Of a stretch of 64,000 nt of DNA, positions 5,081 to 60,610 are shown piece after piece; positions within the stretch are counted from its first letter, which is position 1, and each line of letters begins with the position of its first letter. Position numbers and translations under genes: made by a program. Below the pieces are notes generated by a model that saw only the letters and a list, made by a program, of their open reading frames with translations, was not told where the DNA came from and ran no database searches. Source of the stretch: an uncultured Dokdonia sp. (GTDB taxonomy: Bacteria; Bacteroidota; Bacteroidia; Flavobacteriales; Flavobacteriaceae); the NCBI RefSeq assembly GCF_947492535.1, contig NZ_CANLNH010000005.1, positions 186,001 through 250,000 on the forward strand, read 5' to 3'.

Positions 5081-5782
5081 TTACTCTTCACACGCTTCCC
5101 AAACAGTATCTCCCTTGGGTAACGGAGCAATAAAAGTCATTTTCTCTTTCTGTACAGGATGTATAAACGTAAGTTTACGTGCATGTAGGCTAATGCTTCC
5201 ATCTTTATTAGAACGATCAAAACCATATTTTAAATCCCCACGTATCGGACTCCCGATAGCCGTCAGTTGACTTCGTATTTGATGATGTCTTCCTGTATGT
5301 AAGTCAATTTCAAGAAGGGTAAAGGTCTTTAGTTTTTTGATGACGCTATAGGTAAGACTTGCTTCTTTTGAATCTGGTACCGCTTTCGCGAAAGCGTAAC
5401 TTTTATTCTGCTTTGTATTGCGTTTTAGATAATGAGTAAGGGTTGCTTGTTCCTGTGAAGGGTGTTTTTTGACCAATGCCCAATAGGTTTTTTGTGTCTT
5501 TCGCTCTGAAAATAACTTATTGAGGCGTGTGAGTGCTTTACTGGTGCGAGCAAACACAACAATTCCACTCGTAGGGCGATCTAGCCGATGGACAACTCCT
5601 AAAAATACAGCCCCAGGTTTATTATATTTTTTGGCAATATACTGCTTGACAACATCGCTTAATGGCGCATCTCCCGTTTTGTCACCTTGTACAATATCTC
5701 CAGCACGCTTATTGATCACAATCAGATGATTGTCTTCATAAATGACGTGTAAATTAGTAGGAGTAGAGTGCGTATGTGCCAT
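5081..5782 (-). CDS. RluA-family RNA pseudouridine synthase
   Basis: It isomerises uridine to pseudouridine in rRNA or tRNA. The family motif H-R-L-D-R-P-T-S-G lies at residues 65-73, with D68 the expected catalytic aspartate, and G-R-x-H-Q-I-R is present near residue 185. At 233 residues it lacks the N-terminal S4 domain of RluC/RluD and resembles the short TruC/RluA-like forms. The target uridine cannot be inferred. It begins 6 bp after the marR-type gene and is probably co-transcribed with it. The genome-wide palindrome adds A-F-A-K-A at residues 130-134. Confidence 0.9.
   Translation of the reverse strand: MAHTHSTPTNLHVIYEDNHLIVINKRAGDIVQGDKTGDAPLSDVVKQYIAKKYNKPGAVFLGVVHRLDRPTSGIVVFARTSKALTRLNKLFSERKTQKTYWALVKKHPSQEQATLTHYLKRNTKQNKSYAFAKAVPDSKEASLTYSVIKKLKTFTLLEIDLHTGRHHQIRSQLTAIGSPIRGDLKYGFDRSNKDGSISLHARKLTFIHPVQKEKMTFIAPLPKGDTVWEACEE
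5381..5396. repeat. Palindrome copy 1 (in RluA gene)
   Basis: CGCTTTCGCGAAAGCG, 16 bp perfect. Read as A-F-A-K-A on the minus strand. Confidence 0.9.
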
Positions 5783-5788
5783 AACGAA

Positions 5789-6397
5789 TTAAGCTGTAGG
5801 TTTTGCTTCATGTTCAGGGCAATCTAGACGAATTTCATGATTTTCTAATGGTTTTTTTAGAAAATGACAATAATGCCCTCCTGATTTTTTTTCATAAAAC
5901 GCACAGCTATGACAATTACGTTGTACACTGAGAATACCAGAAGTGTTGAGACCGTAAATTAATTTTGTAATCGTATGGAATAATTGTTGTACCTCACCCT
6001 TATCTATAGTTCCTAATTGATGTTTAATAGGAAGTGCAAAATCTTCTATCTGAAGCAGTACATTAGTTCCTGTTTGCGTAAGCGCTATGGCATAACTTCT
6101 ACTATCTGTAGAAACTGTTTTCTTTTGAATATACTCTTTTTTAAGTAATACTTTTACAGCATCACTCACCGTAGGTTTTGTAATATTAAATTCTTTTGCA
6201 AGGTAGCTTACAGTGCACATCTCTAGTTTATGATTTGCAACAAATAATAAAATTTGTATCTGAATAGGACTTAGCCCTACCACTTTTGCATGTTCCCAAA
6301 GAAGTACTTTGAACGCTTCAGAAATACGCTCTAACCCTACGACAACCTTATTAGCGATGTCGTCTTGATGCTCAGTATTAAATATTGTTTTTTTCAT
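5789..6397 (-). CDS. MarR-family regulator with C-terminal four-cysteine cluster
   Basis: The N-terminal 150 residues form a MarR-type winged helix; the recognition region is around N-I-T-K-P-T-V-S-D at 71-79. After this comes an extra tail with C162-x2-C165-x11-C177-x15-C193, a spacing that suggests a bound Fe-S cluster or zinc and hence redox or metal sensing (inference). The ATG at 6397 is chosen over a TTG six bases earlier. Its own promoter carries the TTAG-AATCCTAA operator, so autoregulation is likely. The same operator precedes the lipoprotein-DUF2024 unit and the thioredoxin-like gene next door, which are its probable targets. The ligand is unknown. Confidence 0.85.
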   Translation of the reverse strand: MKKTIFNTEHQDDIANKVVVGLERISEAFKVLLWEHAKVVGLSPIQIQILLFVANHKLEMCTVSYLAKEFNITKPTVSDAVKVLLKKEYIQKKTVSTDSRSYAIALTQTGTNVLLQIEDFALPIKHQLGTIDKGEVQQLFHTITKLIYGLNTSGILSVQRNCHSCAFYEKKSGGHYCHFLKKPLENHEIRLDCPEHEAKPTA

Positions 6398-6434
6398 AAG
6401 CAAACAGTGCCTATAGCTTTTGATATGCTATAGG

Positions 6435-6442
6435 CAAAGTTA
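6435..6442 (-). promoter_or_regulatory. -7 element of the marR-type gene
   Basis: The minus strand reads TAACTTTG, an exact match to the Bacteroidota -7 consensus TAnnTTTG, about 40 bp before the start codon. Its upstream end overlaps the operator at 6440-6452, which is the layout expected for autorepression. No TTG at the usual -33 distance is seen. Confidence 0.6.
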
Positions 6443-6452
6443 GTAATCCTAA
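6440..6452. promoter_or_regulatory. Operator copy 1 (marR-type gene)
   Basis: TTAGTAATCCTAA is an imperfect palindrome (one mismatch) of the form TTAGGAWTCCTAA. It overlaps the -7 box of the marR-type promoter. It is followed by TATA-like sequence, as in the other two copies. Confidence 0.65.
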
Positions 6453-6467
6453 GTATATGATGTGCCA

Positions 6468-6731
6468 TTAATCACAATTTTGTAACTCTATAATATGGTA
6501 TCCTTTCTCTTGGATAGAAGTCACAACTTCTTCGGGAGCTGTTTCCATATGACATAAACGACATTCTGAAGTACTCAAAGATTTAATTTGAACTTCTTTA
6601 GTTGTTAAATAATCATCTCCATATTGAAAGATGGTTTCTTCTTTTACTATTTCTATAGGAGCGAGAATATCAAAATGCATTAACGTCCCATCATTTTTTC
6701 GAACATAGGTGTCCCAAACATTTACTTTCAT
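6468..6731 (-). CDS. DUF2024 family protein
   Basis: This small cytoplasmic protein of 87 residues matches the DUF2024 pattern (start M-K-V-N-V-W-D-T-Y-V, then M-H-F-D-I). The function of the family is unknown. It contains a C-R-L-C-H motif (about residues 57-61) and a further cysteine next to the C-terminus, so metal binding or redox chemistry is possible. It starts 7 bp after the lipoprotein gene and should share its operator-controlled transcript. Confidence 0.8.
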   Translation of the reverse strand: MKVNVWDTYVRKNDGTLMHFDILAPIEIVKEETIFQYGDDYLTTKEVQIKSLSTSECRLCHMETAPEEVVTSIQEKGYHIIELQNCD

Positions 6732-6738
6732 AACGATT

Positions 6739-7467: not shown

Positions 7468-7500
7468 ACGAATACATATTAATAGTTAAGATTTTTTAGA

Positions 7501-7511
7501 TAGGAATCCTA
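7501..7511. promoter_or_regulatory. Operator copy 2 (lipoprotein-DUF2024 unit)
   Basis: TAGGAATCCTA is a perfect 11-bp palindrome around a central A/T pair, 34 bp upstream of the lipoprotein start. It is followed on the plus strand by ACTATATAA, exactly as at copy 3. It lies in the only gap before this unit. Confidence 0.7.
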
Positions 7512-7528
7512 ACTATATAATTTAAGAA

Positions 7529-7762: not shown

Positions 7763-7794
7763 GTGTATTTTAGTTTTAAAAATTAATAATGATG

Positions 7795-8255: not shown

Positions 8256-9074
8256 TCAATACTGTTCAGACTCATTCGGGAAATCCTGAGACTTGACATC
8301 TGTTGCATATTGTTTAAAAGCATTAGTCATCTCAGTATACATATCTAGGTATCTTCTTAAAAAACGAGGATTAAACTCGTGTGTCATTCCCAGCATATCA
8401 TGCGTAACTAATACTTGCCCATCTACACCACCACCCGCACCTATTCCTATGATAGGTATTGTTAAGCTTTCGGCAACCTCTTGTGCAAGTTTTGCAGGAA
8501 CCTTTTCCAGAACAATCGCAAAGCATCCTGCTTTTTCAAGCATTAAGGCGTCTTCTTTTAGTTTTGCAGCTTCTTCTTCTTCTTTTGCACGTACTGTATA
8601 TGTACCAAATTTATAGATAGACTGTGGAGTCAATCCTAGATGTCCCATTACTGGAATACCTGCATGTAGAATACGCTTTACACTTTCTTTGATTTCTTTA
8701 CCTCCTTCTACTTTGATCGCATGACCACCACTTTCTTTCATAATACGTATGGCAGAACGTAATGCCTCTTTAGGATCACTTTGATAACTTCCAAAAGGAA
8801 GATCTACCACAACCAATGCACGATCTATAGCACGTATCACAGAAGAAGCATGATAAATCATCTGATCTAATGTGATAGGAAGTGTTGTCTCATGACCCGC
8901 CATGACATTAGATGCACTGTCGCCTACAAGAATAACATCTATTCCAGCACCATCTACAATTTTTGCCATGGTGTAGTCATAGGCAGTAAGCATTGATATC
9001 TTTTCACCGCGATTTTTCATCTCAGTGAGCGATTTAACAGTAATACGTTTATATTCTTTTTTTGCGACAGACAT
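8256..9074 (-). CDS. panB: 3-methyl-2-oxobutanoate hydroxymethyltransferase
   Basis: PanB adds a hydroxymethyl group from 5,10-methylene-THF to ketoisovalerate, giving ketopantoate for pantothenate and CoA synthesis. Typical motifs are M-L-T-A-Y-D-Y near residue 27, V-G-D-S-A-S-N near 50, H-L-G-L-T-P-Q-S near 145, and G-I-G-A-G near 205. The start at 9074 (M-S-V-A-K-K-E-Y) gives 272 residues, the usual length; the longer frame back to 9212 has no family match and would overlap the divergent gene. A TACTTTTG -7 box precedes it. Confidence 0.95.
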
Positions 9075-9093
9075 TCGGTTATGTTTTATCCTA

Positions 9094-9101
9094 CAAAAGT
9101 A
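9094..9101 (-). promoter_or_regulatory. -7 element of panB
   Basis: The minus strand reads TACTTTTG, an exact TAnnTTTG match 20 bp before the chosen start codon, which supports that start over the longer frame. Confidence 0.55.
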
Positions 9102-9134
9102 GTAAATTACATAGCTATATGAATCATGATTTTT

Positions 9135-9641
9135 ATGAAGGGTAAATATATTATTATAGGAATGGTATTTGGACTTGTTTTTTTCGCTTTCGCGAAAATC
9201 ACCACAGCTCAAACCACATCGTTATCAAATGAAGAAACGGAAGTAAAACAACTCGTAGAACGTTTTTTTGAAGGATTTCATAAACAAGACTCTATCATTA
9301 TTAAAAGTGTTGTTCACGAAAAAATACTTATGCAATCCATTGGTAAGAACAGAACAGGAGAAGTCGTATTAAGTAAACAGGACTTTAGTGGCTTCTTAAC
9401 ATCTATCTGTTCTATTCCTGATGAAACCCAATTTGAAGAGCGTATTAAAAGCTATAAAGTTCAAATAGATGATAATAAAGCGATGGCAAATGTGTGGACC
9501 CCATATTCCTTTTACATAAATGGCGAATTAAGCCATTGTGGCACCAATAGTTTTCAACTCTTTAAACGCGATGGCGTATGGAAAATCTTTTATATCGTAG
9601 ATACAAGAGATCGGGATGGCTGTGGTATTAAGCGTGGCTAG
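9135..9641 (+). CDS. Secreted NTF2-like (SnoaL/DUF4440-type) protein
   Basis: A signal peptide (about residues 1-26, ending T-A-Q) precedes a single NTF2-like domain of about 130 residues, a fold used for ligand binding or simple catalysis. The pattern E[18 protein letters not shown] at the start and W-K-I-F-Y at the end is typical. The ATG at 9135 is preferred over 9126 because it gives a normal signal peptide. The genome palindrome falls within the hydrophobic core of the signal peptide (F-A-F-A-K). Confidence 0.75.
9188..9197. repeat. Palindrome copy 2 (in NTF2-like gene)
   Basis: Core TTTCGCGAAA only. Read as F-A-K within the signal peptide. Confidence 0.85.
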
Positions 9642-11568: not shown

Positions 11569-13005
11569 TTAACAATCTGCCATTCCTACATTAACAGCGA
11601 GTCCACCTTCACTGGTTTCTTTATATTTTGTATTCATGTCTTGCGCTGTTTGCCACATGGTTTCGATTACTTTATCGAGTGGCACTTTGGCATTGGCAGC
11701 ATCTGTATCTAATGCCATTTCGCAGGCATTAATTGCTTTGATAGCTCCCATCGCATTACGTTCGATACACGGAATTTGAACAAGACCGCCTATAGGATCA
11801 CAGGTAAGCCCTAGATGATGTTCCATCGCAATTTCTGCAGCCACGAGCACTTGATCTGGTGTTCCTCCCATAAGTTCAGTTAAAGCTCCTGCAGCCATAG
11901 CGCTAGAAACCCCTATTTCTGCCTGACACCCACCCATAGCAGCAGAGATGGTCGCCCCTTTCTTAAAGAGACTTCCTATTTCTCCTGCAACTAATAAAAA
12001 CTTTCGGACATCTTCAAAATTGGCATCGTGATTTTCAATGACCATATAATACATCATAACGGCTGGTATAACACCTGCACTTCCATTCGTAGGAGCCGTC
12101 ACAACACGTCCTAAAGAGGCATTTACTTCATTGACAGCCAATGCAAAGCAAGACACCCATTTTAAAATTTCGCGAAAGCGGACTTCTGTACCACGTATCG
12201 CTTCAATCCATTCATATTTATCAGTATATGAGATTCCTTTTTGTAATTTTTTATGACTGTCATACGCACGACGACGTACATTTAATCCGCCAGGTAAGGT
12301 TCCTTCTGTATGACACCCCGTATACATAGAGTCTAGCATGACATCCCAAATTTGTTTGAAACGCTCATTAATTTCTTCTTCTGAGTTGAGGTATAATTCG
12401 TTTTCAAAAACAATCTGAGAAATCGATTTATTTTCATTTTTACAATAGGCGAGAAGATCTGTTGCTAGTTCGACAGGTCTTGGAAAACATTGAAATTGAT
12501 GTACTTTTAGTTCAGAACGTTTACGCTCTTCTTGCACAACAAATCCGCCTCCAATAGAATAAAACGTTTCTTCAATAACGTGCTCGCCCGCATGTGCTTT
12601 AAATGTAATTCCGTTAGGGTGGAATGGTAAAAAGTCACGATTAAATTTTATAGATTCGGCGGGATCAAAAGAAATGGTACGCTCGCTATTAAAAGAAATT
12701 TCTTTAGCTGTTTTGATGTTCTCAATCGTTGTAGGGATAGCATCAATAGCACACGTTTGAGGGTCTGCTCCAAGAAGCCCCATCATTACGGCGACATCTG
12801 TAGCATGACCTTTTCCAGTAAGTGATAAAGAACCATATAAATCTATATGTAAACGATCTACAGTATCAAATACGTTATCTTCTTTGAGCTTTTTTATAAA
12901 ACGTCTAGCGGCACGCCAAGGGCCTAATGTATGGGAGCTGGATGGACCCACTCCTATTTTTAGCATATCAAATACAGAGATACACTCTATTTCTTTTTCT
13001 TTCAT
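11569..13005 (-). CDS. sdaA: L-serine ammonia-lyase, iron-sulfur type
   Basis: It deaminates L-serine to pyruvate and ammonia. It is the single-chain bacterial form (478 residues): an N-terminal beta domain with S-S-S-H-T near 22-26, then the catalytic alpha domain. C360, C402 and C413 have the spacing (42 and 11 residues) of the three cysteines that hold the 4Fe-4S cluster in this family. The palindrome is read here as R-F-R-E at about 276-279, a frame different from most copies. It overlaps the GNAT gene by 4 bp and is likely translated in coupling with it. Confidence 0.95.
12168..12177. repeat. Palindrome copy 3 (in sdaA)
   Basis: Core TTTCGCGAAA. Read as F-R-E, a different frame from most copies. 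Confidence 0.8.
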
Positions 13006-13514
13006 GTAAGATCATATTGCATGATGTAATCTGTCTGAATTTCGGCAATCATATCGTAGTGATGTGTGCCAGTGATCTTAAAACCACACCTTTTATAAAA
13101 TCGAATTGCATCTGGGTTTTCTTCCCAAACGCCTAACCAAATGTAGTTTTTTTCCAGTTTAAGTGCTTCAGAAATCGAAAAATCTATTGCTTTTTTTCCA
13201 AATCCTTGATTTACATAGGGAGAATCGATATAGATACGTTCAATTTCGAGTCCGTTTTTATCTTGAAATTCTGTTTGTGCATTGCCTATATTAAGTTTAA
13301 GATATCCAATAATGGTATCGTTTTGTTGCATAAAATACCAATAGGAGTCTGGGGCTAAAAGTTGTTTTTCTAAATGCGCTTTCGCGAAAGCGTATACCAC
13401 ATACTTCTCCAATACGCCAGGTTTGTTCTTATGAGCAAAAGCATTTGTATATGTACGTGTGGCTAACGTACGAAGGGTATTAATATCCTGTATGTGAATA
13501 GGAGTAAACTGCAC
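13002..13514 (-). CDS. GNAT-family N-acetyltransferase
   Basis: The 170-residue protein has the acetyl-CoA binding motif A, Q-G-F-G-K-K-A (about 111-117), and the C-terminal R-F-Y-K-R-C-G-F motif of GNAT enzymes. The substrate is not predictable. The start is a GTG; no nearby ATG exists in frame. It overlaps sdaA by 4 bp, so the two form an operon. The palindrome encodes A-F-A-K-A near residue 43. Confidence 0.85.
   Translation of the reverse strand: MQFTPIHIQDINTLRTLATRTYTNAFAHKNKPGVLEKYVVYAFAKAHLEKQLLAPDSYWYFMQQNDTIIGYLKLNIGNAQTEFQDKNGLEIERIYIDSPYVNQGFGKKAIDFSISEALKLEKNYIWLGVWEENPDAIRFYKRCGFKITGTHHYDMIAEIQTDYIMQYDLT
13377..13392. repeat. Palindrome copy 4 (in GNAT gene)
   Basis: CGCTTTCGCGAAAGCG, 16 bp perfect. 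Read as A-F-A-K-A. Confidence 0.9.
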
Positions 13515-17226: not shown

Positions 17227-17250
17227 TTTTTGCTTTCGCGAAAGCAAAAA
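17227..17250. repeat. Palindrome copy 5 (after umuC), 24 bp perfect
   Basis: The 14-bp palindrome is extended by five T and five A into a 24-bp perfect palindrome. Two more short palindromes follow (17253-17265 and 17266-17275). It may act as umuC 3' structure; no U tract follows. Confidence 0.9.
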
Positions 17251-22636: not shown

Positions 22637-22646
22637 TTTCGCGAAA
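22637..22646. repeat. Palindrome copy 6 (upstream of hydrolase gene)
   Basis: Core TTTCGCGAAA in the 56-bp gap before the hydrolase start. Confidence 0.85.
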
Positions 22647-23295: not shown

Positions 23296-23718
23296 ATGAA
23301 TTTGACTAGAGAACAAATACTGGAAAGACTTGCTCAAAGTTGTAAAAACACATTGATGGAAACACTAGAAATCAAGTATATTGATTTTGGTGAAGATTTT
23401 CTTGTGGCACAAATGCCAGTAACCCCTAGAGTTCATCAACCAGATGGAGTTCTACATGGCGGTGCCATGGTCGCACTTGCAGAGAGTGTAGGGAGTGCTG
23501 CTAGTTTTCTATTTTTGGATGGAGAAAGTATGTATGTGAGAGGTATTGAAATATCTGCAAATCATGTAAAAAGTAAGCGCGACGGTATGGTATATGCCAA
23601 AGCCACTTTTATACATAAAGGCCGTACGACACAACTTTGGAATATAGATGTGGTAGATGAAGAAGACCTATTAATATCTAAAGTAAAATTGACTACAATT
23701 GCATTACCTAAAAAATAA
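23296..23718 (+). CDS. menI: DHNA-CoA thioesterase (hotdog fold)
   Basis: A PaaI/YdiI-type hotdog thioesterase of 140 residues. The signature Q-P-D-G-V-L-H-G-G-A-M-V-A-L-A-E-S (about 45-61) carries the catalytic glutamate, as in 1,4-dihydroxy-2-naphthoyl-CoA hydrolases. It sits one base before menF in a menaquinone operon, which makes the MenI assignment likely over a generic thioesterase. The start at 23296 is chosen since the longer frame overlaps the divergent gene. Confidence 0.85.
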   Translation: MNLTREQILERLAQSCKNTLMETLEIKYIDFGEDFLVAQMPVTPRVHQPDGVLHGGAMVALAESVGSAASFLFLDGESMYVRGIEISANHVKSKRDGMVYAKATFIHKGRTTQLWNIDVVDEEDLLISKVKLTTIALPKK

Positions 23719-24839
23719 TGACAGAAGCTTCTTTCTTTGAACATATTACACAGCAATTTGATGATGCGCTTCCATTTGTAGCCTATAGAAAATCAAATAG
23801 TACTATATTACAGGGTTTCTATCAAGAAAATAGTCATACACATTATAGTAAAGATTTTAAAGAAAGCGGATTTGTATTTGCTCCTTTTGATAATGCAAAA
23901 GAGTGTATTATTATACCAGATACATACGCTATACATTGTGAGTATAGTGCTACAGGAATAATACATGATGGATCAGAAATTAACATGCCAGAAGAAGATG
24001 CTTTTCAGAAGCAACGACATCTTGAGTTAGTAGAAGATGGAATCTCTAAAATTAAGGAAGGGGTGTTACAAAAAGTTGTGCTTTCGCGAAAGCGTACTTT
24101 TCCAAATACCTTATCAAATCCTATTGCTGTTTTTAAAAAGCTATTGCAAGCGTATACCACTGCTTTTGTTTATATATGGTATCATCCTAACATTGGATTA
24201 TGGCTTGGTGCTACCCCGGAAACACTATTAGAAATAAAAAATAGAACATTACATACAATGTCACTAGCAGGGACTCAAAAGTATATTCCTGACACTATAA
24301 TCTCATGGGGAGCTAAAGAGAAAGAAGAGCAGCAATTAGTTACAGATACGATCGTTTCTAAATTACAACCACTTACTAAAAATCTTTCTGTAGGTGATGT
24401 AGAAAATCATAAGGCAGGAAACTTACTGCATTTGAAAACTGCTATTTCTGCAAGTGTAGATGAAACAGAAGTTTCTTTAAAAGAAATCATTCAGGCATTA
24501 CATCCCACACCAGCTGTTTGCGGACTTCCAGTGGAAGATGCAAAAGAATTCATTATAGGAAATGAAAATTATGATCGTTCTTATTATACAGGATTTTTGG
24601 GTGAACTCAATATTAAAAGTGAAACGAATCGTTCTACATCAAGACGTAATGTAGAAAACTTAGCGTATAGAAGTGTAAAAAAACATACGCATCTTTTTGT
24701 GAATTTGCGTTGTATGGAACATACGGTAAAAGGGACGCAAGTATATGTAGGCGGAGGGATTACCGCAGCAAGTATCCCAGAGTCAGAATGGGAGGAAACT
24801 AGACATAAGCTTGAGACTATGGGGAGTGTGTTGTTTTAA
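23718..24839 (+). CDS. menF: Isochorismate synthase
   Basis: It converts chorismate to isochorismate, the first committed step of menaquinone synthesis. The chorismate-binding domain fills the C-terminal two thirds, with K-V-V-L-S-R-K-R near 117-124, G-A-T-P-E-T-L near 160, P-T-P-A-V-C-G near 260 and Y-V-G-G-G-I-T near 350. The palindrome lies within the conserved K-V-V-L-S-R-K region and is read as L-S-R-K. The start overlaps the menI stop by one base. An entC-like role in siderophore synthesis is not supported by the neighbours. Confidence 0.92.
   Translation: MTEASFFEHITQQFDDALPFVAYRKSNSTILQGFYQENSHTHYSKDFKESGFVFAPFDNAKECIIIPDTYAIHCEYSATGIIHDGSEINMPEEDAFQKQRHLELVEDGISKIKEGVLQKVVLSRKRTFPNTLSNPIAVFKKLLQAYTTAFVYIWYHPNIGLWLGATPETLLEIKNRTLHTMSLAGTQKYIPDTIISWGAKEKEEQQLVTDTIVSKLQPLTKNLSVGDVENHKAGNLLHLKTAISASVDETEVSLKEIIQALHPTPAVCGLPVEDAKEFIIGNENYDRSYYTGFLGELNIKSETNRSTSRRNVENLAYRSVKKHTHLFVNLRCMEHTVKGTQVYVGGGITAASIPESEWEETRHKLETMGSVLF
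24080..24093. repeat. Palindrome copy 7 (in menF)
   Basis: GCTTTCGCGAAAGC, 14 bp perfect. Read as L-S-R-K within a conserved motif, the third frame. Confidence 0.85.
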
Positions 24840-36008: not shown

Positions 36009-38144
36009 TTACGAAATATGCGCTATCATAATATCTAATAATCCAATGGCAGCTTCACTTATTTTAGTTCCAGGTCCAAAAACCGCAACGGCACCAGCGT
36101 CAAATAGGAACTGGTAATCCTGTTGTGGAATGACTCCCCCTACAATTACCATAATATCTGGACGACCTAGCTTTGTAAGTTCTTCAATTACTTTTGGAAC
36201 CAATGTTTTGTGACCCGCTGCAAGCGAAGAAACCCCTAGAATATGAACATCATTTTCCATGGCTTGCTTGGCAGCTTCTTTTGGGGTTTGAAATAATGGG
36301 CCAATATCTACATCAAAGCCTATGTCTGCATATCCAGTTGCGACTACTTTGGCACCTCGATCATGGCCATCTTGTCCCATTTTTGCAATCATAATACGAG
36401 GGCGACGACCATCTAACTCGGCAAATTGGTTTGCAAGTTGTTGCGCTTTCGCGAAAGCGGGATCTTTTTTAATTTCTTTACTATACACGCCACTAAATGA
36501 TTTTATCGTTGCTTTATGCCTACCGTACACATTTTCTAAGGCATCTGAAATTTCACCTAAAGTAGCACGTTCCCGGGCAGCAACTACAGCCAGAGCTAAT
36601 AAATTATCTTTACCAGACCGAGCTGCTTCTGTTAGGTTAGTAAGCGCTTGTGTAACTTTTGCAGTGTCACGTTGTTCTTTAATGTTTTTTAATCGAGCTA
36701 ACTGACCATCTCGTACTTTTGTATTATCTACTTCAAGAATATCAAGGAATTCTTCTTCGGTTGGGCGGTATTTATTGACACCTACAATAATGTCTTGGCC
36801 ACTATCTATACGTGCTTGTTTACGAGCAGCAGCTTCTTCAATACGTAATTTAGGAATTCCAGCTTCTATAGCTTTGGTCATTCCTCCTAAATCTTCTACT
36901 TCTTGAATAAGTTCCCAAGCTTTATGAGCAATAGCATCCGTAAGAGATTCTACATAATAACTTCCAGCCCAAGGATCAACCGTGCGGGTGATTTCTGTTT
37001 CTGTTTGAAGATATATTTGTGTGTTACGCGCTATACGTGCCGAAAAATCTGTAGGTAATGCAATGGCTTCATCAAGCGCATTGGTATGTAAACTTTGTGT
37101 GCCTCCAAAAGCAGCAGCTGTAGCTTCGATACAGGTACGTGCTACATTATTAAAAGGATCTTGTTCTGTAAGACTCCATCCACTGGTTTGACAATGCGTT
37201 CGTAATGCTAATGATTTTGGATTTTTCGGATTGAATTGTGATACTAGTTTTGACCATAACATACGCGCTGCACGCATTTTGGCTACTTCCATAAAGTGAT
37301 TCATTCCTATCGCCCAGAAGAAAGATAAACGAGGTGCAAATGTATCAATATCCATTCCTGCTTTCAATCCTGTACGTATATACTCAAGGCCATCGGCTAG
37401 CGTATAGGCAAGTTCGATATCACAAGTTGCGCCAGCTTCTTGCATGTGATATCCTGAAATTGATATTGAATTGAATTTAGGCATCTCCCTAGAGGTGTAC
37501 TCAAAAATATCTGAGATAATACGCATAGAAGGCGTAGGAGGGTAGATATAAGTGTTACGCACCATAAATTCCTTCAAAATATCATTCTGTATGGTGCCTG
37601 AGAGTTTTTCAGGAGCAACGCCTTGTTCTTCTGCGGCAACAATATAAAACGCCATGATGGGAAGTACAGCGCCATTCATTGTCATAGAGACAGACATTTG
37701 ATCTAGAGGTATTTGATCAAACAATAGTTTCATGTCTTCTACAGAGTCTATAGCCACACCTGCTTTTCCTACATCACCTACCACGCGTTCATGGTCACTA
37801 TCGTATCCTCTATGCGTAGCAAGATCAAAAGCAACAGAGAGTCCTTTTTGTCCTGCAGCAAGATTACGACGGTAAAAAGCATTACTTTCTTCGGCAGTAG
37901 AAAACCCTGCATATTGTCGTATGGTCCATGGTCTTCGTACATACATAGTACTGTAAGGACCTCTTAAATTAGGCGCAATACCAGCTACAAAATCCAAATG
38001 TTCTAAGGTGTCAATATCTTCTTTACTATATGATTTTTTAAGATCTATAGTTTCTGCTGTAGGTGTAACTTCTTTAACGGTAGTATTTTTTACAGCAGTC
38101 TGTAAAGAATCTAAAGTAATATGGTCTAGCTTTTTTCTAGTCAT
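36009..38144 (-). CDS. mutB: Methylmalonyl-CoA mutase, large (catalytic) subunit
   Basis: A B12 enzyme that interconverts methylmalonyl-CoA and succinyl-CoA. The TIM-barrel domain (about 60-560) has typical segments such as [11 protein letters not shown] near 70 and S-I-S-G-Y-H near 228. The C-terminal cobalamin domain has the D592-x-H594-x2-G597 signature. The protein is 711 residues, normal for the family. The palindrome gives A-F-A-K-A near residue 563, in the linker between domains. It is the last gene of the udk-ftsB-mutA-lipoprotein-mutB run. Confidence 0.97.
36444..36459. repeat. Palindrome copy 9 (in mutB)
   Basis: CGCTTTCGCGAAAGCG, 16 bp perfect. Read as A-F-A-K-A in the interdomain linker. 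Confidence 0.9.
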
Positions 38145-38746: not shown

Positions 38747-40114
38747 TTAAACTTCAGTTTTAAGACGTTCTTGTTCCATCTTTTCAGATAGACGTTGTTT
38801 TATGATAGGTTCAATAAGTGTTTTTCTTGGATTGATCTTAACAAAAGGATATAACTCTAATGCTGCTTTCATACGATCATCAGGGTTAGGGTGTTTATTG
38901 GTTCCGAGAAGAATCTTTTCTTGAGTATCAAATTGAGTTTGCTCTTTTTGAGCACTTTCTTTGATTTTACGTTGTATAGTTCCTTCTTTAAGTTGTTTTA
39001 GAAACCCTCCTTGTTGTTCTATGTCTTTAAAAAGTGCTAATGCTTTTTCTGCTAGCTGTTTTGTGATTGCTTCTATATAATAGGTTCCATCAGATGGATT
39101 GCTTACAGCATCAAAATAGCTTTCCTTTTTTAGAATAATCAATTGATTGCGAGAAATGCGTTGTCCAAAATCATTTGTTTTATGATAGATATAATCATAG
39201 GGCATATTAATCACAGTGTCTGCACCGCCTAATACCGCACTCATTGCTTCGGTTGTTGTACGAAGCATATTGGTATTGTAATCATAAATGGTTTTATTAC
39301 GGCGTGTTGGTCTAGCAATGATGTGGGTTGTGACCGCTTTCGCGAAAGCGTACTCCTGCATCAAAACAGTTGACAATTGCCTCAAGGCACGAAGTTTTGC
39401 AATTTCAAAAAAGTAATTGGACCCAATAGCTACTTGGAACGTAATAGATGGTAATGAAACATTCAGTTTTTCTAGATGTGCTAAGTATTCATTTGCATGG
39501 GCTAATCCATATGCAAGTTGCTGTATCATAGTTGCTCCAGCATTTTGATACAGATCTATATCTATAGATAACGTATTTGTTTCTTTTTGGAGTATCGTGT
39601 CAAGAATACGATGGTCTTCTTTTAAATTATGATACCAATTGCCATCTTCAGCTAAATGATTGATGAGGTCTATATGTAAATATATAGCACGATTTCCGGT
39701 TTTCTTGATGATATCTTGGTAGAAATTTTCATCTAGAAATTGTAATTTAAAATGGATAGGAACTTCTGCCTGCGTTAGTGATTTAAATAATTGCTGGATA
39801 TTAAAAGGAGCATCAGCACTAAAATAGAGTGCTTCTGTGCCAGATGATACAACTTCATTTGCGGTTTGTGCTGCTTTGCTAGCATCTTGTATAAAAATAT
39901 CTTCTCCAATATACCAAGTAGAGGGCATTCCGGGTACTTCTGGAAAATCTGTTGCCTCATCTCTATGGTAAAATGGCTTAATATCTATCCCTTCATTACT
40001 ATGCCAAACTAGGGTGTCATTATAGGATGCGCCTTTAAGATCAAACTGTATTTTTTGTTTGAAAGCTTTAGAAGACACGGAGTCAAAATTGGTAAAGAGT
40101 TTATTCTTTGTCAT
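38747..40114 (-). CDS. mutA: Methylmalonyl-CoA mutase, small subunit
   Basis: A 455-residue relative of the mutase barrel without the B12-binding C-terminal domain or most active-site residues, as in the structural small subunit of Bacteroidota and Propionibacterium. Segments such as F-Q-V-A-I-G-S-N-Y-F-F-E-I-A-K-L-R-A near 228 match the mutase family. It overlaps ftsB by 14 bp. The palindrome gives A-F-A-K-A near residue 257. Confidence 0.9.
   Translation of the reverse strand: MTKNKLFTNFDSVSSKAFKQKIQFDLKGASYNDTLVWHSNEGIDIKPFYHRDEATDFPEVPGMPSTWYIGEDIFIQDASKAAQTANEVVSSGTEALYFSADAPFNIQQLFKSLTQAEVPIHFKLQFLDENFYQDIIKKTGNRAIYLHIDLINHLAEDGNWYHNLKEDHRILDTILQKETNTLSIDIDLYQNAGATMIQQLAYGLAHANEYLAHLEKLNVSLPSITFQVAIGSNYFFEIAKLRALRQLSTVLMQEYAFAKAVTTHIIARPTRRNKTIYDYNTNMLRTTTEAMSAVLGGADTVINMPYDYIYHKTNDFGQRISRNQLIILKKESYFDAVSNPSDGTYYIEAITKQLAEKALALFKDIEQQGGFLKQLKEGTIQRKIKESAQKEQTQFDTQEKILLGTNKHPNPDDRMKAALELYPFVKINPRKTLIEPIIKQRLSEKMEQERLKTEV
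39335..39350. repeat. Palindrome copy 10 (in mutA)
   Basis: CGCTTTCGCGAAAGCG, 16 bp perfect. Read as A-F-A-K-A. Confidence 0.9.
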
Positions 40115-45454: not shown

Positions 45455-45470
45455 CGCTTTCGCGAAAGCG
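45455..45470. repeat. Palindrome copy 11 (intergenic)
   Basis: CGCTTTCGCGAAAGCG, 16 bp perfect, between the TonB receptor gene and icd. Confidence 0.9.
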
Positions 45471-45713: not shown

Positions 45714-45733
45714 TACGCTTTCGCGAAAGCGTA
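45714..45733. repeat. Palindrome copy 12 (abuts the icd stop)
   Basis: The palindrome is extended to 20 bp perfect (TACGC...GCGTA) and ends one base before the icd stop codon. Confidence 0.9.
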
Positions 45734-49778: not shown

Positions 49779-51257
49779 TTAATATGCCTTTGCAAATAGT
49801 ACACGTTGCGTAGATGGAGCACCACTATAAACACAAACTCCATCCTCTTTAGGGTTCTCTAAAGGAATACAACGTATTGTAGCTTTAGTAAGTTCTTTAA
49901 TCTTATTCTCAGTCTCAGTAGTTCCATCCCAATGAGCACTTATAAATCCTCCTTTAGTTTCTAAAATATCTTTGAATTCATCAAAGTTTTGAACTTCTGT
50001 AATATGAGAATCTCTATATGTTTTTGCTTTATCATATAGATTTTCTTGAATATCTTTTAGAAGTTGAACTACCGTCTCAACTATAGCTTCTTTAGCAACA
50101 AACTCTTTTGTAAGTGTATCCCTCCTTGCGAGTTCTACTGTCCTTTTTTCTAAATCTTTTGGTCCTATTCCAATTCTAAGAGGAACTCCTTTTAATTCAT
50201 ACTCATTAAATTTCCATCCAGGTTTGTGTGTATCTCTATTATCAAACTTAACAGTGACATTATGAAGTCGTAAGTCATTTACAATTTCATTAGCCACCTG
50301 AGAAATGGCATCTAGTTGTTCTTGGTTTCTATATATAGGAACAATGACCACTTGATAAGGTGCTAAGTTTGGAGGTAATACCAACCCTTGATCATCACTA
50401 TGTGTCATGATAAGTGCTCCCATAAGACGTGTAGATACTCCCCAAGAAGTTGCCCATACGTGTTCTTGTTTTCCTTCTTTGGTTGCAAATTTTACATCAA
50501 ATGCTTTCGCGAAATTTTGCCCTAAGAAATGTGAAGTTCCTGCTTGTAATGCTTTTCCATCTTGCATTAATGCCTCTATGCAAAAAGTTTCATCAGCTCC
50601 AGCAAAGCGTTCACTTTCCGTTTTTAATCCTTTAATAACAGGTACTGCTAAGAAATTTTCAACAAAAGTTGCATATACATTATTCATTAAATCTGCTTCA
50701 GCGATAGCTTCTTCTTTTGTGGCATGTGCTGTGTGACCTTCTTGCCATAAGAACTCTGCTGTACGTAAAAATAAACGTGTACGCATTTCCCAACGCACTA
50801 CATTTGCCCATTGATTAATTAATAATGGTAAATCTCTATAAGACTGTATCCATCCTTTATAGGTATTCCAAATAATAGCTTCACTGGTAGGTCTAACTAC
50901 AAGTTCTTCTTGTAGTTTTGCTTCAGGGTCAACGATTAGTTTTCCTTCATTATCAGGATCCGTTTTAAGTCTATAATGTGTTACAACGGCACATTCTTTA
51001 GCAAAACCTTCTGCATTTTTTTCTTCAGCTTCAAAAAGGCTCTTAGGAACAAAAAGAGGGAAATACGCATTTTGATGTCCAGTTTCTTTAAACATCCTAT
51101 CAAGCTCTGCTTGCATTTTTTCCCAGATAGCAAATCCGTATGGTTTTATGACCATGCATCCACGCACAGCAGAATTTTCTGCTAAATCAGCTTTGACGAC
51201 AAGTTCATTATACCATTTTGAGTAATCTTCGCTTCTTTTTGTTAAGTTCTTCCCCAT
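49779..51257 (-). CDS. proS: Prolyl-tRNA synthetase (short, ProS-type 3)
   Basis: It charges tRNA-Pro. The class II core has motif 2 [11 protein letters not shown] near 152 and the anticodon-binding domain from about 280. There is no bacterial editing insertion, as in the archaeal/eukaryotic-like form found in Bacteroidota. The ATG at 51257 gives the usual 492 residues; a TTG at 51299 adds 14 unmatched residues. The palindrome gives N-F-A-K-A. Confidence 0.95.
50505..50514. repeat. Palindrome copy 13 (in proS)
   Basis: Core TTTCGCGAAA. Read as N-F-A-K-A. Confidence 0.85.
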
Positions 51258-51312
51258 AAAAGGTTTTTTTGGCACAAAATTTGTGACTACATTAGACAAA
51301 TAATAATTAATA

Positions 51313-54764: not shown

Positions 54765-56453
54765 TTATTTTCCTTTTTCTAATAAAGCAATATCAAATGG
54801 AGAGCTAAAACTAACTTTTCCGTTAATAACTCTTACTTTTTGTTTTGAATAAGTTTCTATTAGGTATTCCGCTTTCGCGAAAGCTTCATCAACCTGAAAC
54901 TCTTTTTTCCCGAAAGGGAGATTAAGACCTATCATAACATGATCAGTATATTCGCCTATCGTAAGATGACGGTTAAAGATATACGGCTTATTGCTTATCA
55001 TAGTATGTTTCCCTGCTCCAATTGCTGGGTGATTTGCTCTAAATTGACCAAGTTTTCTCCAATGCTTTAATATTTCTTTTGTTTCTGGAGAGTTTTTCTG
55101 GTCCTCCCAATTCATAAAACTACGCAGCGTTGCATCTCCTTGCGTACCTTCAATAACAAGATTTCTGGCACTTTCATCACCATAATAGATTTGTGATATA
55201 CCAGGTGTTAGTATTAATTTAGTTCCTGTTTCTTTTGCTTTTTCTCTTGTGACATCAAAGGGTTGTCCGTCATCATGTGAAGTTGCATAATTCGTGATAC
55301 TTACTTCCTTGTGAGATGAGCGATTAATACTATCATATTTAGCAAATAAGGCTTCATAATCCCCTTGTGCATCGTATTTAAACTGGAAATTGATCAAGTT
55401 GTCAAAACCGTTAGCAAAGTAATCTACTTTTGTTCCATCACCAAAGTCAAAAGAACGACCACCATCTACAGAGTAGTTATATACTTCTCCTAGCATAAAG
55501 AAATCTGTATCGTCAAGTACTTTATCAGGATGCGCTTTTTTATAGGCTGCAAATGCTTTGTCTGCCTCTTCTCTTAATACCACCCATGACGCTTCATCTA
55601 CATGTTTTGCAGTATCTACACGATAGGCATCTATTCCTAATTCACGTACATAATCAGTAAGCCATTTAATAATATAATTACGAGGTGTTTTTTTATACTT
55701 GTTTTCAGTAAAAAAAGCAGTAAGTTCATTCATTTCTTGTTCATAACGCCCTTCTGCTTTCCATTTTTCAATAAGTAATTTTGGGAGTTCAACTTCTGTA
55801 GTACTTTCAGTTAAAATATCAGGTAAGTTTTCTACAAGACTACATGCCGTAGTATTCTCATAGGTAGAAAATTTACAATTAGGGTCTTCTCTTGCCCAAT
55901 CAGTTCCCCAAAAAGGATCTTGATCAGTAACAGGACCTGTGTGGTTTAAAACAACATCCATAACAATACGTATTCCAGCAGCATGAGCCGCATCTACGAC
56001 GTCTTTTAAATCATCCATGGTTCCAAAATTTGGATCTAATTGCGTCCAATCTTTAGCCCAATACCCATGGTATCCATATGTAACTCCAGTACCTTCATCT
56101 ACTGCTCCATGTACTTGCTCAACAACAGGAGTAAACCATAATGCATTTATACCTAATTCATTAAAATATCCTTCTTGAATTTTATCTTTGATTCCTTTTA
56201 AGTCACCGCCCTCAAATCCACGCAATACAGCTGTTTTTTTTGATCGATCAAAATGGATATCATTTGTAGGATCTCCATTATTAAAACGATCTGTAAGTAA
56301 AAAGTACATATTTGAAGCTTCCCATAAAAATGGTGTCGTTACAACGTCTTCTTCTTCTTCAATACCTTTGGTGCTATCTTCTTTTTTTTCTTCTTTACAA
56401 GCTGATACTAAAAACAATAAAAGAAATAAGGGATAAAGCGTATAATTCTTCAT
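54765..56453 (-). CDS. GH13 alpha-amylase-family lipoprotein
   Basis: It acts on alpha-1,4-glucans. The lipobox V-S-A-C19 places it in the outer envelope. GH13 motifs are D-V-V-L-N-H (166-171), D-A-Y-R-V-D280 (nucleophile), G-E323-V (acid/base) and S-H393-D394. The length is 562. The palindrome encodes A-F-A-K-A near the C-terminal beta domain. It is not next to a SusCD pair. Confidence 0.92.
   Translation of the reverse strand: MKNYTLYPLFLLLFLVSACKEEKKEDSTKGIEEEEDVVTTPFLWEASNMYFLLTDRFNNGDPTNDIHFDRSKKTAVLRGFEGGDLKGIKDKIQEGYFNELGINALWFTPVVEQVHGAVDEGTGVTYGYHGYWAKDWTQLDPNFGTMDDLKDVVDAAHAAGIRIVMDVVLNHTGPVTDQDPFWGTDWAREDPNCKFSTYENTTACSLVENLPDILTESTTEVELPKLLIEKWKAEGRYEQEMNELTAFFTENKYKKTPRNYIIKWLTDYVRELGIDAYRVDTAKHVDEASWVVLREEADKAFAAYKKAHPDKVLDDTDFFMLGEVYNYSVDGGRSFDFGDGTKVDYFANGFDNLINFQFKYDAQGDYEALFAKYDSINRSSHKEVSITNYATSHDDGQPFDVTREKAKETGTKLILTPGISQIYYGDESARNLVIEGTQGDATLRSFMNWEDQKNSPETKEILKHWRKLGQFRANHPAIGAGKHTMISNKPYIFNRHLTIGEYTDHVMIGLNLPFGKKEFQVDEAFAKAEYLIETYSKQKVRVINGKVSFSSPFDIALLEKGK
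54871..54884. repeat. Palindrome copy 14 (in GH13 gene)
   Basis: GCTTTCGCGAAAGC, 14 bp perfect. Read as A-F-A-K-A. Confidence 0.9.
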
Positions 56454-57475: not shown

Positions 57476-58525
57476 TTGAAAGCTACGTATCATAAACACA
57501 TACTCAATTTTAAAAGAGCTAGCGGTACTTCCAGAGGTATCTTAAAGACAAAAGAGACATGGTATATTGTTATTGAAGATGGTAATAAGCAAGGAATTGG
57601 AGAGTGCGGTATCTTAAGAGGATTAAGCTTTGATGATCGTCCTGATTATGAAGAACGCTTACGTTGGACCTGTGCAAATATTGAAAAAGGACCCGAACTA
57701 TTGTGGGAGGAGTTAAAAGAATTTCCTAGTATTCAGTTTGGCGTTGAAATGGCTTTTCTATCTCTCGAAGCACAAGATCCTTTTGTGTTATTTCCTTCAA
57801 AATTCACAAATTCTAAAGATGCTATAGCTATAAATGGTTTAGTCTGGATGGGTGATGAGGTGTTTATGAAAGCACAGATAGCGCAAAAACTAGAAGCGGG
57901 TTTTGATTGTATAAAAATGAAGATAGGTGCTATTGATTTTGATAAAGAGTTAGCCTTACTTCGTTCGATTCGTAAGCACTATGATGCATCAAAAATAACA
58001 GTGCGTGTAGATGCTAATGGTGGGTTCGCTTTCGCGAAAGCGCAAGAAGTTCTAAAACAATTAGCACTATTAGATATTCATTCCATAGAACAACCTATCG
58101 CAGTAGGACAATGGGAAGAAATGAAACAGCTTTGTGCAGAAACGCCGACACCTATTGCGCTTGATGAAGAACTAATTGGTATCATGGATGTAACAAAAAA
58201 GAGAGATATGCTACATGTCATTCGGCCACAATACATTATATTGAAGCCAAGTTTTGTGGGCGGATATCAAGGCAGTGAAGAATGGATAGATCAAGCAGAA
58301 GCGTTGGATATAGGATGGTGGATCACATCTGCTTTAGAGAGTAATATAGGCCTTAATGCTATAGCACAATGGACCTATGAATTAAAAGCAAAAGGACCAC
58401 AAGGATTAGGTACAGGTGGTTTATTTACAAATAATATTCAAGCTCCTTTGGAAGTTAGAAAAGGAGGTTTACACTATAATAATCAAGTAGATTGGGATTT
58501 TAATACAGGTACATTATGTTTATAG
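57476..58525 (+). CDS. menC: O-succinylbenzoate synthase
   Basis: An enolase-superfamily dehydratase of menaquinone synthesis. The catalytic lysine is in I-K-M-K-I-G (about 140-145), and metal ligands are in V-D-A-N-G (177-181), I-E-Q-P-I (about 204) and L-D-E-E-L (about 229). The start is a TTG, the only fitting codon. The palindrome encodes F-A-F-A-K-A right after V-D-A-N-G-G, beside the active site. It overlaps the CPBP gene by 10 bp. Confidence 0.92.
   Translation: MKATYHKHILNFKRASGTSRGILKTKETWYIVIEDGNKQGIGECGILRGLSFDDRPDYEERLRWTCANIEKGPELLWEELKEFPSIQFGVEMAFLSLEAQDPFVLFPSKFTNSKDAIAINGLVWMGDEVFMKAQIAQKLEAGFDCIKMKIGAIDFDKELALLRSIRKHYDASKITVRVDANGGFAFAKAQEVLKQLALLDIHSIEQPIAVGQWEEMKQLCAETPTPIALDEELIGIMDVTKKRDMLHVIRPQYIILKPSFVGGYQGSEEWIDQAEALDIGWWITSALESNIGLNAIAQWTYELKAKGPQGLGTGGLFTNNIQAPLEVRKGGLHYNNQVDWDFNTGTLCL
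58027..58042. repeat. Palindrome copy 15 (in menC)
   Basis: CGCTTTCGCGAAAGCG, 16 bp perfect. Read as A-F-A-K-A beside the metal-ligand motif. Confidence 0.9.
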
Positions 58526-59460
58526 AACAAGCGTATAAAGGATTACATGAGGGGTGGAGATATATTATCGGATTTTTAATTGTATTCCTTTTTGGATGGC
58601 AAATTATAGGAGTAATTCCATTATTTGTGAGTGCTTTTTCCAGATCTTCTAATGTAGGAGAATTTTTAGCCTCTTCTGAAGAGATGTTTATTGATTTATA
58701 TCCTGGCGAGAGTAATTTTTATTTAGTGCTTGTGATATTTACATTTATAGGAGGTTTGATAGCGCTTATTCCTGTAGTAAAATATTTCCATAGACAACGG
58801 TTTGTAAAGATGCTAACCTCTAGAGCTACATTAGATTGGAAAAGAGTGTTTTTTGCGTTTGGTATATGGGGCGCATTTTCTGTTATTACCACTTTTATAG
58901 GTTATTACTTAGCGCCAGAAGATTTACAGTGGAATTTTAATTTAATGCCATTTTTAGGACTATTGGCAATCACATTACTATTACTACCATTGCAAACTAG
59001 TTTTGAAGAATTTTTATTTAGAGGATATTTAATGCAGGGTATAGGCATGGCTGCTAAAAATAGATTAGCTCCTTTAATCATAACATCTTTAATTTTTGGA
59101 TTAATGCATGGCTTAAATCCTGAAATTGAAAAGTTAGGATATAGTGTATTGTCTGTGTACATAGGTATAGGGCTCTTTTTAGGAATTATTACATTGATGG
59201 ATGACGGAATGGAATTAGCACTAGGATTTCATGCAGCAAATAATATGTTTATTGCACTATTGGTAACATCAGATTGGACTGCGTTGCAAACCAATTCTGT
59301 GTTTTTGGATGTATCAGAACCTTCTGCGATAGGTCAAATTGTGCCTATATTTATTATTCTACCTATCCTCACATTTGTCTTTGCAAAAAAGTACAAATGG
59401 AATAACTGGAAAGAAAAACTTGCAGGACGTATTCTTCCTAAAGAAGAAGTCATAAATTAA
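58516..59460 (+). CDS. CPBP-family intramembrane protease in the men cluster
   Basis: An eight- or nine-helix membrane protein with E164-E165-x3-R169, L-M-H-G near 196 and L-G-F-H-A-A-N-N near 235. It overlaps menC by 10 bp, so the two are translated in coupling. Its place in the menaquinone cluster is by position; the substrate is unknown. Confidence 0.85.
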   Translation: MFIEQAYKGLHEGWRYIIGFLIVFLFGWQIIGVIPLFVSAFSRSSNVGEFLASSEEMFIDLYPGESNFYLVLVIFTFIGGLIALIPVVKYFHRQRFVKMLTSRATLDWKRVFFAFGIWGAFSVITTFIGYYLAPEDLQWNFNLMPFLGLLAITLLLLPLQTSFEEFLFRGYLMQGIGMAAKNRLAPLIITSLIFGLMHGLNPEIEKLGYSVLSVYIGIGLFLGIITLMDDGMELALGFHAANNMFIALLVTSDWTALQTNSVFLDVSEPSAIGQIVPIFIILPILTFVFAKKYKWNNWKEKLAGRILPKEEVIN

Positions 59461-59518
59461 TAATAACCTCATAGTAAGGTAACTTTAGCTTTATACGAAG
59501 CTTGTATTTTGGTTCATT

Positions 59519-60610
59519 ATGGTAAAAAACCCTGAACGATACATACGTGTGCATCCCAAATTTAAACTGAATGGGACGCATTATACGATAGCTTCTTTGC
59601 GCACACTAGCTTATGAGTTTATAAAAGAGGGAGAACCTTATGAAGAGTCTGTAGGTGCTTTTTTACTAGACTGGCTTAATGAAAAATCATATGTTACTGT
59701 AAAGACATCAGGATCTACCGGAGCCCCTAAGGCTATAAAGATTAAAAAAGCACACATGTCTAATAGTGCAAAGGCGACTGCCAAGCACTTTAAACTGCCA
59801 GAAAAAACAACAGCACTTCTTTGTTTACCAGCCGATTTTATAGCGGGTAAAATGATGTTAGTGCGTGCATTGGTATTAGGATGGCATATTGATATGACGC
59901 AGCCTAAATCAAATCCTTTAGATAATGTATATCGTCGATATGATTTTTGTGCAATGACCCCTTTTCAATTAGATAATTCATTATCTAGACTACATTTATT
60001 ATCTAAACTCATTGTTGGAGGAGGTAGTATTTCTGAAGTTTTAAAAAAGGAATTACAAGGAGTTTCTACCAAGATTTATGAAACCTACGGAATGACAGAA
60101 ACGGTAACGCATATAGCAGCGAGACGTGTAAATCCTAAAAAGAAAAAAGAAGGACGTATCCCTTTTAAGGCATTATCTAAAGTGAGTGTCCATACAGATG
60201 ATCGCGGTTGTCTTGTTATAAAAGCACCTTTAGTGAGTAGTGACCCTGTTGTTACAAATGACCTTGTTCTATTAGAAACCTATAAAAAATTTATATGGTT
60301 AGGTCGTGTAGATAATGTGATTAATAGTGGAGGTATAAAGTTGTATCCAGAACAAATAGAACAAAAACTATCACCAATGATTCATGTGCCTTTTTTTGTA
60401 GCTGGCATACCTGATGATGCCTTGGGAGAGAAATTAGCATTATTTGTTGAGCAGGAAGAAGCGTTTGCTTTCGCGAAAGCGGAATACGATGTATCAGATT
60501 TTGAAAAGTATGAAATCCCAAAAGTTATTTTTTCGCTTCCGCGGTTTGAACGCACAGCAAATGGAAAATTGCAAAGAGGACAGACCGTTTATAAAATGAT
60601 TAAAAGTTAG
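59519..60610 (+). CDS. menE: O-succinylbenzoate-CoA ligase
   Basis: An adenylate-forming enzyme that activates succinylbenzoate in menaquinone synthesis. The P-loop is T-S-G-S-T-G-A-P-K (about 63-71), then Y-E-T-Y-G-M-T-E-T near 186 and W-L-G-R-V-D-N-V-I near 260. It is 363 residues, about 100 shorter at the N-terminus than E. coli MenE. The palindrome gives A-F-A-K-A near 318. Confidence 0.92.
   Translation: MVKNPERYIRVHPKFKLNGTHYTIASLRTLAYEFIKEGEPYEESVGAFLLDWLNEKSYVTVKTSGSTGAPKAIKIKKAHMSNSAKATAKHFKLPEKTTALLCLPADFIAGKMMLVRALVLGWHIDMTQPKSNPLDNVYRRYDFCAMTPFQLDNSLSRLHLLSKLIVGGGSISEVLKKELQGVSTKIYETYGMTETVTHIAARRVNPKKKKEGRIPFKALSKVSVHTDDRGCLVIKAPLVSSDPVVTNDLVLLETYKKFIWLGRVDNVINSGGIKLYPEQIEQKLSPMIHVPFFVAGIPDDALGEKLALFVEQEEAFAFAKAEYDVSDFEKYEIPKVIFSLPRFERTANGKLQRGQTVYKMIKS
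60467..60480. repeat. Palindrome copy 16 (in menE)
   Basis: GCTTTCGCGAAAGC, 14 bp perfect. Read as A-F-A-K-A. Confidence 0.9.

Follow-up and report, generated by a model that had tools for sequence, protein, structure and literature searches.

Results

In the present study, we analysed a 64-kb stretch of Dokdonia DNA (the window; positions 186001-250000 of contig C5 in genome G000, an assembly of 4,863,283 bases in 73 contigs that lies near D. pacifica), in which a short palindrome is repeated many times. The exact 10-mer core, TTTCGCGAAA, occurs 16 times between positions 5384 and 60478, and 12 of these copies carry the full 14-mer, GCTTTCGCGAAAGC, giving an overall span of 5382-60480; in the other four, the flanking GC is altered on one side. 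An extra match to the 14-mer with two mismatches and a broken core lies at position 32743. Twelve copies are located within 12 open reading frames (ORFs) and four are intergenic (Table 1). In 100 dinucleotide shuffles of the window, the mean was 0.07 copies of the core and the maximum was 1. A sequence-only reading of this DNA had counted 16 cores and 12 full 14-mers in genes and gaps, about 4 kb apart, where about 0.1 copies were expected, and our recount agrees with it on all these points; the span that it gave, 5381-60480, was right at its end and has been corrected to 5382 at its start. The copy density is 0.25 per kb in the window versus 0.225 in the whole genome, and the window is therefore ordinary for its genome in this respect.

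Table 1. Copies of the palindrome in the 64-kb window and the ORFs in which they lie
Copy	Position	Location and reading
Full 14-mer	5382-5395	ORF 5081-5782 (-), read as AFAKA
10-mer core, one flank altered	9188-9197	ORF 8256-9212 (-), FRE close to the N-terminus
10-mer core, one flank altered	12168-12177	ORF 11569-13005 (-), serine dehydratase, FRE
Full 14-mer	13378-13391	ORF 13002-13514 (-), AFAKA
Full 14-mer	17232-17245	Intergenic
10-mer core, one flank altered	22637-22646	Intergenic
Full 14-mer	24080-24093	ORF 23718-24839 (+), chorismate-binding enzyme, LSRK
Full 14-mer	30623-30636	ORF 29539-30672 (-), C1-like peptidase, AFAKA in N-terminal hydrophobic stretch
Full 14-mer	36445-36458	ORF 36009-38144 (-), methylmalonyl-CoA mutase with B12-binding domain, AFAKA
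Full 14-mer	39336-39349	ORF 38747-40114 (-), second methylmalonyl-CoA mutase chain, AFAKA
Full 14-mer	45456-45469	Intergenic
Full 14-mer	45717-45730	Intergenic; 261 bp from the preceding site (rare close pair); flanks TACGC...GCGTA
10-mer core, one flank altered	50505-50514	ORF 49779-51299 (-), prolyl-tRNA synthetase, NFAKA
Full 14-mer	54871-54884	ORF 54765-56453 (-), alpha-amylase family, AFAKA
Full 14-mer	58028-58041	ORF 57476-58525 (+), MenC-like, AFAKA
Full 14-mer	60467-60480	ORF 59519-60610 (+), AMP-binding enzyme, AFAKA

The copies extend well beyond the window and their number is far from expectation, since the genome as a whole contains 1094 of them versus 21 for the pattern read backwards, which served as control. 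All 18 Dokdonia genomes carry 481-1195 copies, all 23 genomes of genus g11, which is presumably Nonlabens, carry 319-893, and the one genome of genus g191 carries 559. Among 199 genomes of the family, one per genus, three carrier genera stand out, the next highest count being 34. A further count of the 14-mer, over 397 genomes that represent 231 genera of the family, gave six carriers, the other 391 having 19 copies or fewer; its backwards control was zero in 396 of the 397. A class-wide set of 396 genomes included no genome besides G000 with more than four copies. All these surveys are samples, and carrier genera may exist outside them. By protein comparison with named genomes, the window falls in Dokdonia, D. 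pacifica being the best match (86%). Among 80 loci taken from that comparison, at least three copies were found in ten Dokdonia loci and in that of the metagenome-assembled genome SAT51 (L161), one copy in two others and none in the rest. The palindrome is thus confined to a few genera among those sampled. A five-marker tree of 33 genomes joined Dokdonia with G190 (99/99) and placed g11 apart, the carrier label requiring two changes. Three carrier placements, taken from a tree of 30 built on a single gene (prolyl-tRNA synthetase), were abandoned in favour of the two given by the five markers. The carriers therefore form at least two lineages, which may stem from two acquisitions or from one with losses.

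The repeated unit consists of the 14 bp, from which a weaker symmetric signal reaches out to about 22 bp. The Dokdonia consensus is about TTACGCTTTCGCGAAAGCGTAA, with a half-site of TTACGCTTTCG in Dokdonia G199 and TTTCGCTTTCG in g11; at position -9, A is the commonest base in Dokdonia and T in g11. The information per site is about 37 bits in G199, 39 in g11 and 28 in G190, for sites picked by the 10-mer core, whose positions are fixed by construction. Exact and single-mismatch 14-mers stand at 129:6 in 400 kb of G199, 67:4 in g11, 26:4 in G190 and 12:0 in the window, and two-mismatch versions, which include the cores with one altered flank, number 18, 3, 15 and 5, respectively. An order-1 Markov model predicts 0.32 copies in 400 kb of G199, where 141 were observed; maximal-order Markov expectations are uninformative because the half-sites occur almost solely within full sites. 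The central TCGCGA outside the motif was observed 26 times in G199 (29.6 expected by the order-1 model), 30 in g11 (29.9), once in the window (3.8) and 42 times in G190 (36.2). As a separate observation, another repeated 10-mer, CATTATCAAA, occurs ten times in the window when both strands are scanned.

The origin and upkeep of the sites were followed by comparing orthologues with and without a copy, a check proposed in the sequence-only reading. In three regions, 82 coding sites had a non-carrier orthologue; at least one ungapped alignment was obtained for 75 of them and gapped alignments only for seven, and 1121 of all 1721 alignments were ungapped. The aligned 14 bases in non-carriers show 3-14 differences from the motif, mostly 6 or 7. 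Most sites thus arose by substitution from sequences that were several differences distant, although few intermediates are seen. In the large methylmalonyl-CoA mutase gene, the window shares its exact 14-mer with eight of the nine other Dokdonia loci covering the site, the ninth having one changed base, while the tenth locus, L154, stops short of the site; the seven non-carriers shown there read SFKKA or SFAKA at equal length. In the second mutase chain, the window site is common to L151 and L152, its two closest loci, and among eight other Dokdonia loci, the gene has a site at another place in five and no site in three, which points to site turnover in this gene.

Where the residues FAK are kept, 199 of 214 orthologous pairs retain the nine central bases, TTCGCGAAA, exactly; FAK itself is changed in 70 further pairs, and 21 pairs are gapped. 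The identity of third codon bases was 624/642 (0.972) in the sites versus 3747/6644 (0.564) in the flanks, and 1268/1820 for the F, A and K codons of the flanks. This test was made on the AFAK frame alone (69 sites), and the pairs share history, hence no p-value is given. These results show that the copies are preserved at the DNA level.

Spacing was computed on the first 92-100 listed copies per genome and compared with 5000 uniform simulations. In four genomes, gaps below 1 kb made up 5-7% versus an expected 18-26%, and the coefficient of variation was 0.83 in G199, 0.68 in G000, 0.76 in G216 and 0.67 in G190, values as low being reached in 0.035, 0.0000, 0.0032 and 0.0000 of the simulations, respectively. 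When the complete G199 chromosome was sampled at twenty places along its circumference, each 20-kb sample held 5-9 copies (variance/mean 0.22); at the 40-kb scale, the under-dispersion is absent in G199 (1.29) and G216 (1.41). The plot against origin and terminus, also proposed beforehand, gave no significant trend of the counts with origin distance in G199 (Spearman -0.33, p 0.16), the approximate position of the origin being taken from the skew and from parS-like sites at 738-741 kb. Copy number rose by 73 per Mb over 12 Dokdonia genomes versus a mean of 261 (p 0.19), and by 117 per Mb over 19 g11 genomes versus a mean of 207 (p 0.23). Of seven site-free gap stretches that were inspected, five hold smaller ORFs and two, adjoining 17-kb stretches of G199 (L334 and L335; C1:286001-321000), are mostly taken up by giant ORFs, which are 4431 and 5060 aa long.

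Sites outside ORFs are in significant excess in G199 (64/141 versus about 8% of bases) and g11 (21/69 versus about 11%), and this excess taken alone is not significant in G190 (6/39) and the window (4/16). Within ORFs lie 77/141 sites in G199, 48/69 in g11, 33/39 in G190 and 12/16 in the window, and the AFAK frame is the commonest there (37/77, 25/48, 15/33 and 9/12, respectively). The ORF calling was crude (at least 90 aa for site location and at least 150 codons for orthologue work), which makes these gene fractions approximate. Compared with background, intergenic sites are not clearly more frequent in convergent or downstream positions. Some sites fall in N-terminal hydrophobic stretches, where AFAKAQ resembles a signal-peptide cleavage region (window 30623-30636); this kind of placement recurs in Dokdonia and G190 (L321-L333, downstream of parB).

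Among the matches listed for non-carriers, the 14-mers are frequently clustered within 10-30 kb, and five genomes (G078, G087, G101, G254 and G160) have a pair spaced by exactly 933 bp. The cluster that was annotated (G087; L271-L272) encodes efflux pumps, metal P-type ATPases and a multicopper oxidase, and is a copper/heavy-metal island with several copies of the palindrome in a genus otherwise nearly without them; this suggests, as a simple explanation, a past stay of the island in a carrier. In another non-carrier, G143, the three copies of the 10-mer at positions 5221, 9604 and 11201 of L290 have a longer, differing context in common (TTTCGCGAAAGACAGACA...) and apparently belong to another repeat. 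The Nonlabens phages P12024S and P12024L (L361 and L362) contain neither the palindrome nor a single TCGCGA in 35.7 kb each; their gene tables are alike and they count as one observation. The matches listed for the 14-mer in viral contigs include GC-rich chance hits and were given no weight.

A protein reading the word was sought among known families. The ParB family (PF02195) has one match in 12 of 13 carriers and three in G217, and two matches in 6 of 23 non-carriers; a second ParB or Noc-like paralogue was rejected as the reader because of the single match in those 12. The motif was also rejected as parS, since near-exact parS sites are separate from it and it has no significant origin trend. 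These parS-like sites (0-1 mismatch) are often paired about 1.9 kb apart in carriers among the matches listed; counts allowing up to two mismatches were not above the backwards control in several genomes. The canonical TTTCACGTGAAA was absent from the stretches scanned for parS, and near-canonical ones occur elsewhere. A ParB/Noc-type site, a parallel raised in the sequence-only reading, is therefore disfavoured. ComEC (PF03772), of the competence machinery, is present in 13 of 13 carriers. A 529-aa gene near comEC, of which G199 and the g11 member G219 share 83% where most neighbours share about 50-70%, proved a false lead: by Pfam it is a POT-family transporter, and paralogues adjoin it. A DUF5689 protein has been proposed as DNA receptor in Riemerella (PMC8459023), and its family (PF18942) was found in 35 of 36 genomes, G032 having none. 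The tree of this protein (L383-L417) is a mosaic across genera; it was built on 34 rows, G122 being omitted as short, and it sets G010 apart from the other five g11 members. Carriers have lower Pfam scores for DUF5689, but also for ComEC and, to a smaller degree, for ParB, and these scores were therefore given no weight.

Discussion

We consider that the palindrome very probably serves as a recognition sequence throughout the genome, that a protein reads it, and that selection or biased recombination maintains it at the level of the DNA itself. Because the site is symmetric, this protein is probably a dimer. The broad inference of the sequence-only reading, a site for a chromosome-wide protein or for uptake, is in line with the DNA-level conservation, the short-range under-dispersion and the restriction to few genera, and two of its narrower options, a selfish motif and a methylase site, fared less well, as discussed below.

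Among known systems, the pattern most resembles uptake sequences. Like the DNA uptake sequences (DUS) of Neisseriaceae and the uptake signal sequences (USS) of Pasteurellaceae, the palindrome occurs in about 10^3 exact copies per genome, is strongly conserved, occupies permissive locations, is under-dispersed and over-represented, and is found in few related lineages with flanking bases that differ between genera. The differences are that DUS and USS are non-palindromic words of 9-12 bp at about one per kb, whereas the present word is a 14-bp palindrome at about one per 3-5 kb, and that single-mismatch versions are far fewer here than in those systems. Neisseria DUS are reported to be highly conserved, to occupy permissive core places and to be missing from recently acquired DNA, and new copies frequently come in through recombination that brings several changes together (PMC2397512). 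The relatively even USS of Haemophilus have been ascribed to biased uptake and molecular drive (PMC7811141). Within the Bacteroidota, a preference for its own DNA is reported for Riemerella columbina, in a study whose k-mer counts went up to about 10 bases (PMC7965970), and a search for pilus homologues in Riemerella is reported to have found none (PMC8459023).

On these grounds, our first-ranked, still tentative, mechanism is a DNA-uptake or self-recognition sequence, and a chromosome-organising protein is ranked next. Naturally competent cells would prefer fragments bearing the word, recombination would replace near-matches by exact copies and thus serve as the copying step, and the word would build up in permissive parts of the shared genome, with about one copy for each recombining fragment. 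Uptake is placed first because the conservation and the permissive places match Neisseria DUS, and because the scarce intermediates fit gain by recombination; our confidence is kept at this level by the palindrome, by its strictness and by the literature on competence considered below. Several points weigh against it. To our knowledge, the known uptake sequences are not palindromes, and a symmetric site is what a dimer-binding protein of the chromosome would call for. USS have more near-misses than this palindrome. ComEC is also present in 22 of 23 non-carriers, which makes it non-discriminating and silent on specificity, and in the comEC neighbourhood of 10 carriers and 10 non-carriers there was no ORF common to the three carrier groups and absent from the non-carriers. 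The DUF5689 protein was rejected as the reader, since its tree needs five carrier-label changes and leaves the carriers ungrouped. Neither regression on genome size is significant, and rarity of the word in acquired DNA is not demonstrated by them. Finally, the literature found, in the parts available, reports no competence in the carrier genera.

The second-ranked explanation, which we regard as rather unlikely, is a site for chromosome organisation or segregation, in which an abundant dimeric protein would bind about once per 3-5 kb and compact, anchor or mark the chromosome. The perfect palindrome with symmetric AT-rich flanks, the narrow range of counts over the 20 samples of G199 without a significant origin trend, and the conservation at individual sites all agree with such a function. 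Against these stand the single ParB match in nearly all carriers with separate parS-like sites, and a copy number that grows only weakly with genome size; furthermore, with about 1000 redundant sites, any one of them can be under weak selection only, and this sits badly with the near absence of near-misses. The likeness to parS and Noc sites is limited to a palindrome with TTTC...GAAA arms, since the arm spacing differs and about 1000 copies are present here, in contrast to a few to about 70 for those sites, and the parS-like sites of the same genomes are distinct from it.

Another reading system, such as a Chi-like control of recombination or a self/non-self nuclease from which the word protects or marks DNA, is improbable in our estimate. 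The density is near that of E. coli Chi, the word is restricted to certain clades, and the two related lytic phages are without it; no candidate protein was found, however, and Chi sites are short and asymmetric.

A methylation or repair mark is less probable again. After uptake sequences, the pattern most resembles the highly iterated palindrome HIP1 (GCGATCGC) of cyanobacteria, which is likewise a clade-limited palindrome with a CG-rich core and is distributed in genes and gaps. HIP1 is tied to methylases and has extensions in 12 of the cyanobacterial genomes examined (PMC4390886). In this explanation, a methylase on TCGCGA or on the CGCG centre would have the motif selected as a strand or self mark, and the CG-centred palindrome and the lack of TCGCGA in the two related Nonlabens phages are consistent with it. 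On the other side, the present palindrome differs from HIP1, which has candidate methylases, in its different and longer sequence and its flavobacterial host, and its conserved unit is at least 14 bp. We know of no methylase site of that length. The methylase proposed earlier as a reader of the centre is disfavoured, since TCGCGA outside the motif shows no clear enrichment: of the four data sets, three are at or below the order-1 expectation and one lies slightly above.

Two explanations have very little left in their favour. A selfish or insertion repeat, comparable to repetitive extragenic palindromes or miniature inverted-repeat transposable elements and copying itself into genes and gaps, would account for the many copies, the palindromy and the seven coding sites that align only with gaps, but it seems already largely refuted by the 75 of 82 coding sites with an ungapped non-carrier alignment, which show no inserted unit, and by the absence of a longer conserved unit, the short-range repulsion and the preferred AFAK frame. 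An RNA-level element, a hairpin terminator or processing signal, is just as hard to sustain: judged by eye, the full consensus could fold back on itself, with an 8-bp stem that leaves CGCG as the loop, and intergenic sites are enriched in G199 and g11, but most sites lie inside ORFs and no preferred orientation was found.

No description of the palindrome was found in open PMC papers, most subscription papers being outside this coverage, and neither the 12-mer nor the 14-mer was in any paper ranked in the open PMC search; the sequence-only reading had also known of no named description. The 10-mer is contained in ten papers, one of which deals with words that the human genome lacks (PMC8034619). 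Methylation of TCGCGA has been reported for MGIIA archaea, not for flavobacteria (PMC9516812).

Conclusion

An exact 14-bp word maintained at several hundred to about 1000 places, many of them genic, amounts to a large and unexplained genomic constraint. The palindrome may also be a residence stamp, tagging DNA that spent time in a carrier. If it is chromosome-organising, its sites would be among the densest such sets known to us, and under either that reading or uptake, the reader protein can be sought directly by DNA affinity. It is possible, and we hold this with less confidence than uptake as such, that the word is the first uptake or self-recognition sequence in Bacteroidota and the first palindromic one, that its receptor works without type IV pili, and that at least two separate lineages of flavobacteria evolved or acquired it with one and the same 14-bp specificity, their genomes being rewritten at several hundred to about 1000 places. 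The carriers are marine bacteria with a proteorhodopsin lifestyle, and an uptake sequence, if it is one, would open natural transformation and genetics in them. It would further be a specificity signal in a phylum whose uptake machinery, as far as it has been studied, has no known pilus (PMC8459023).

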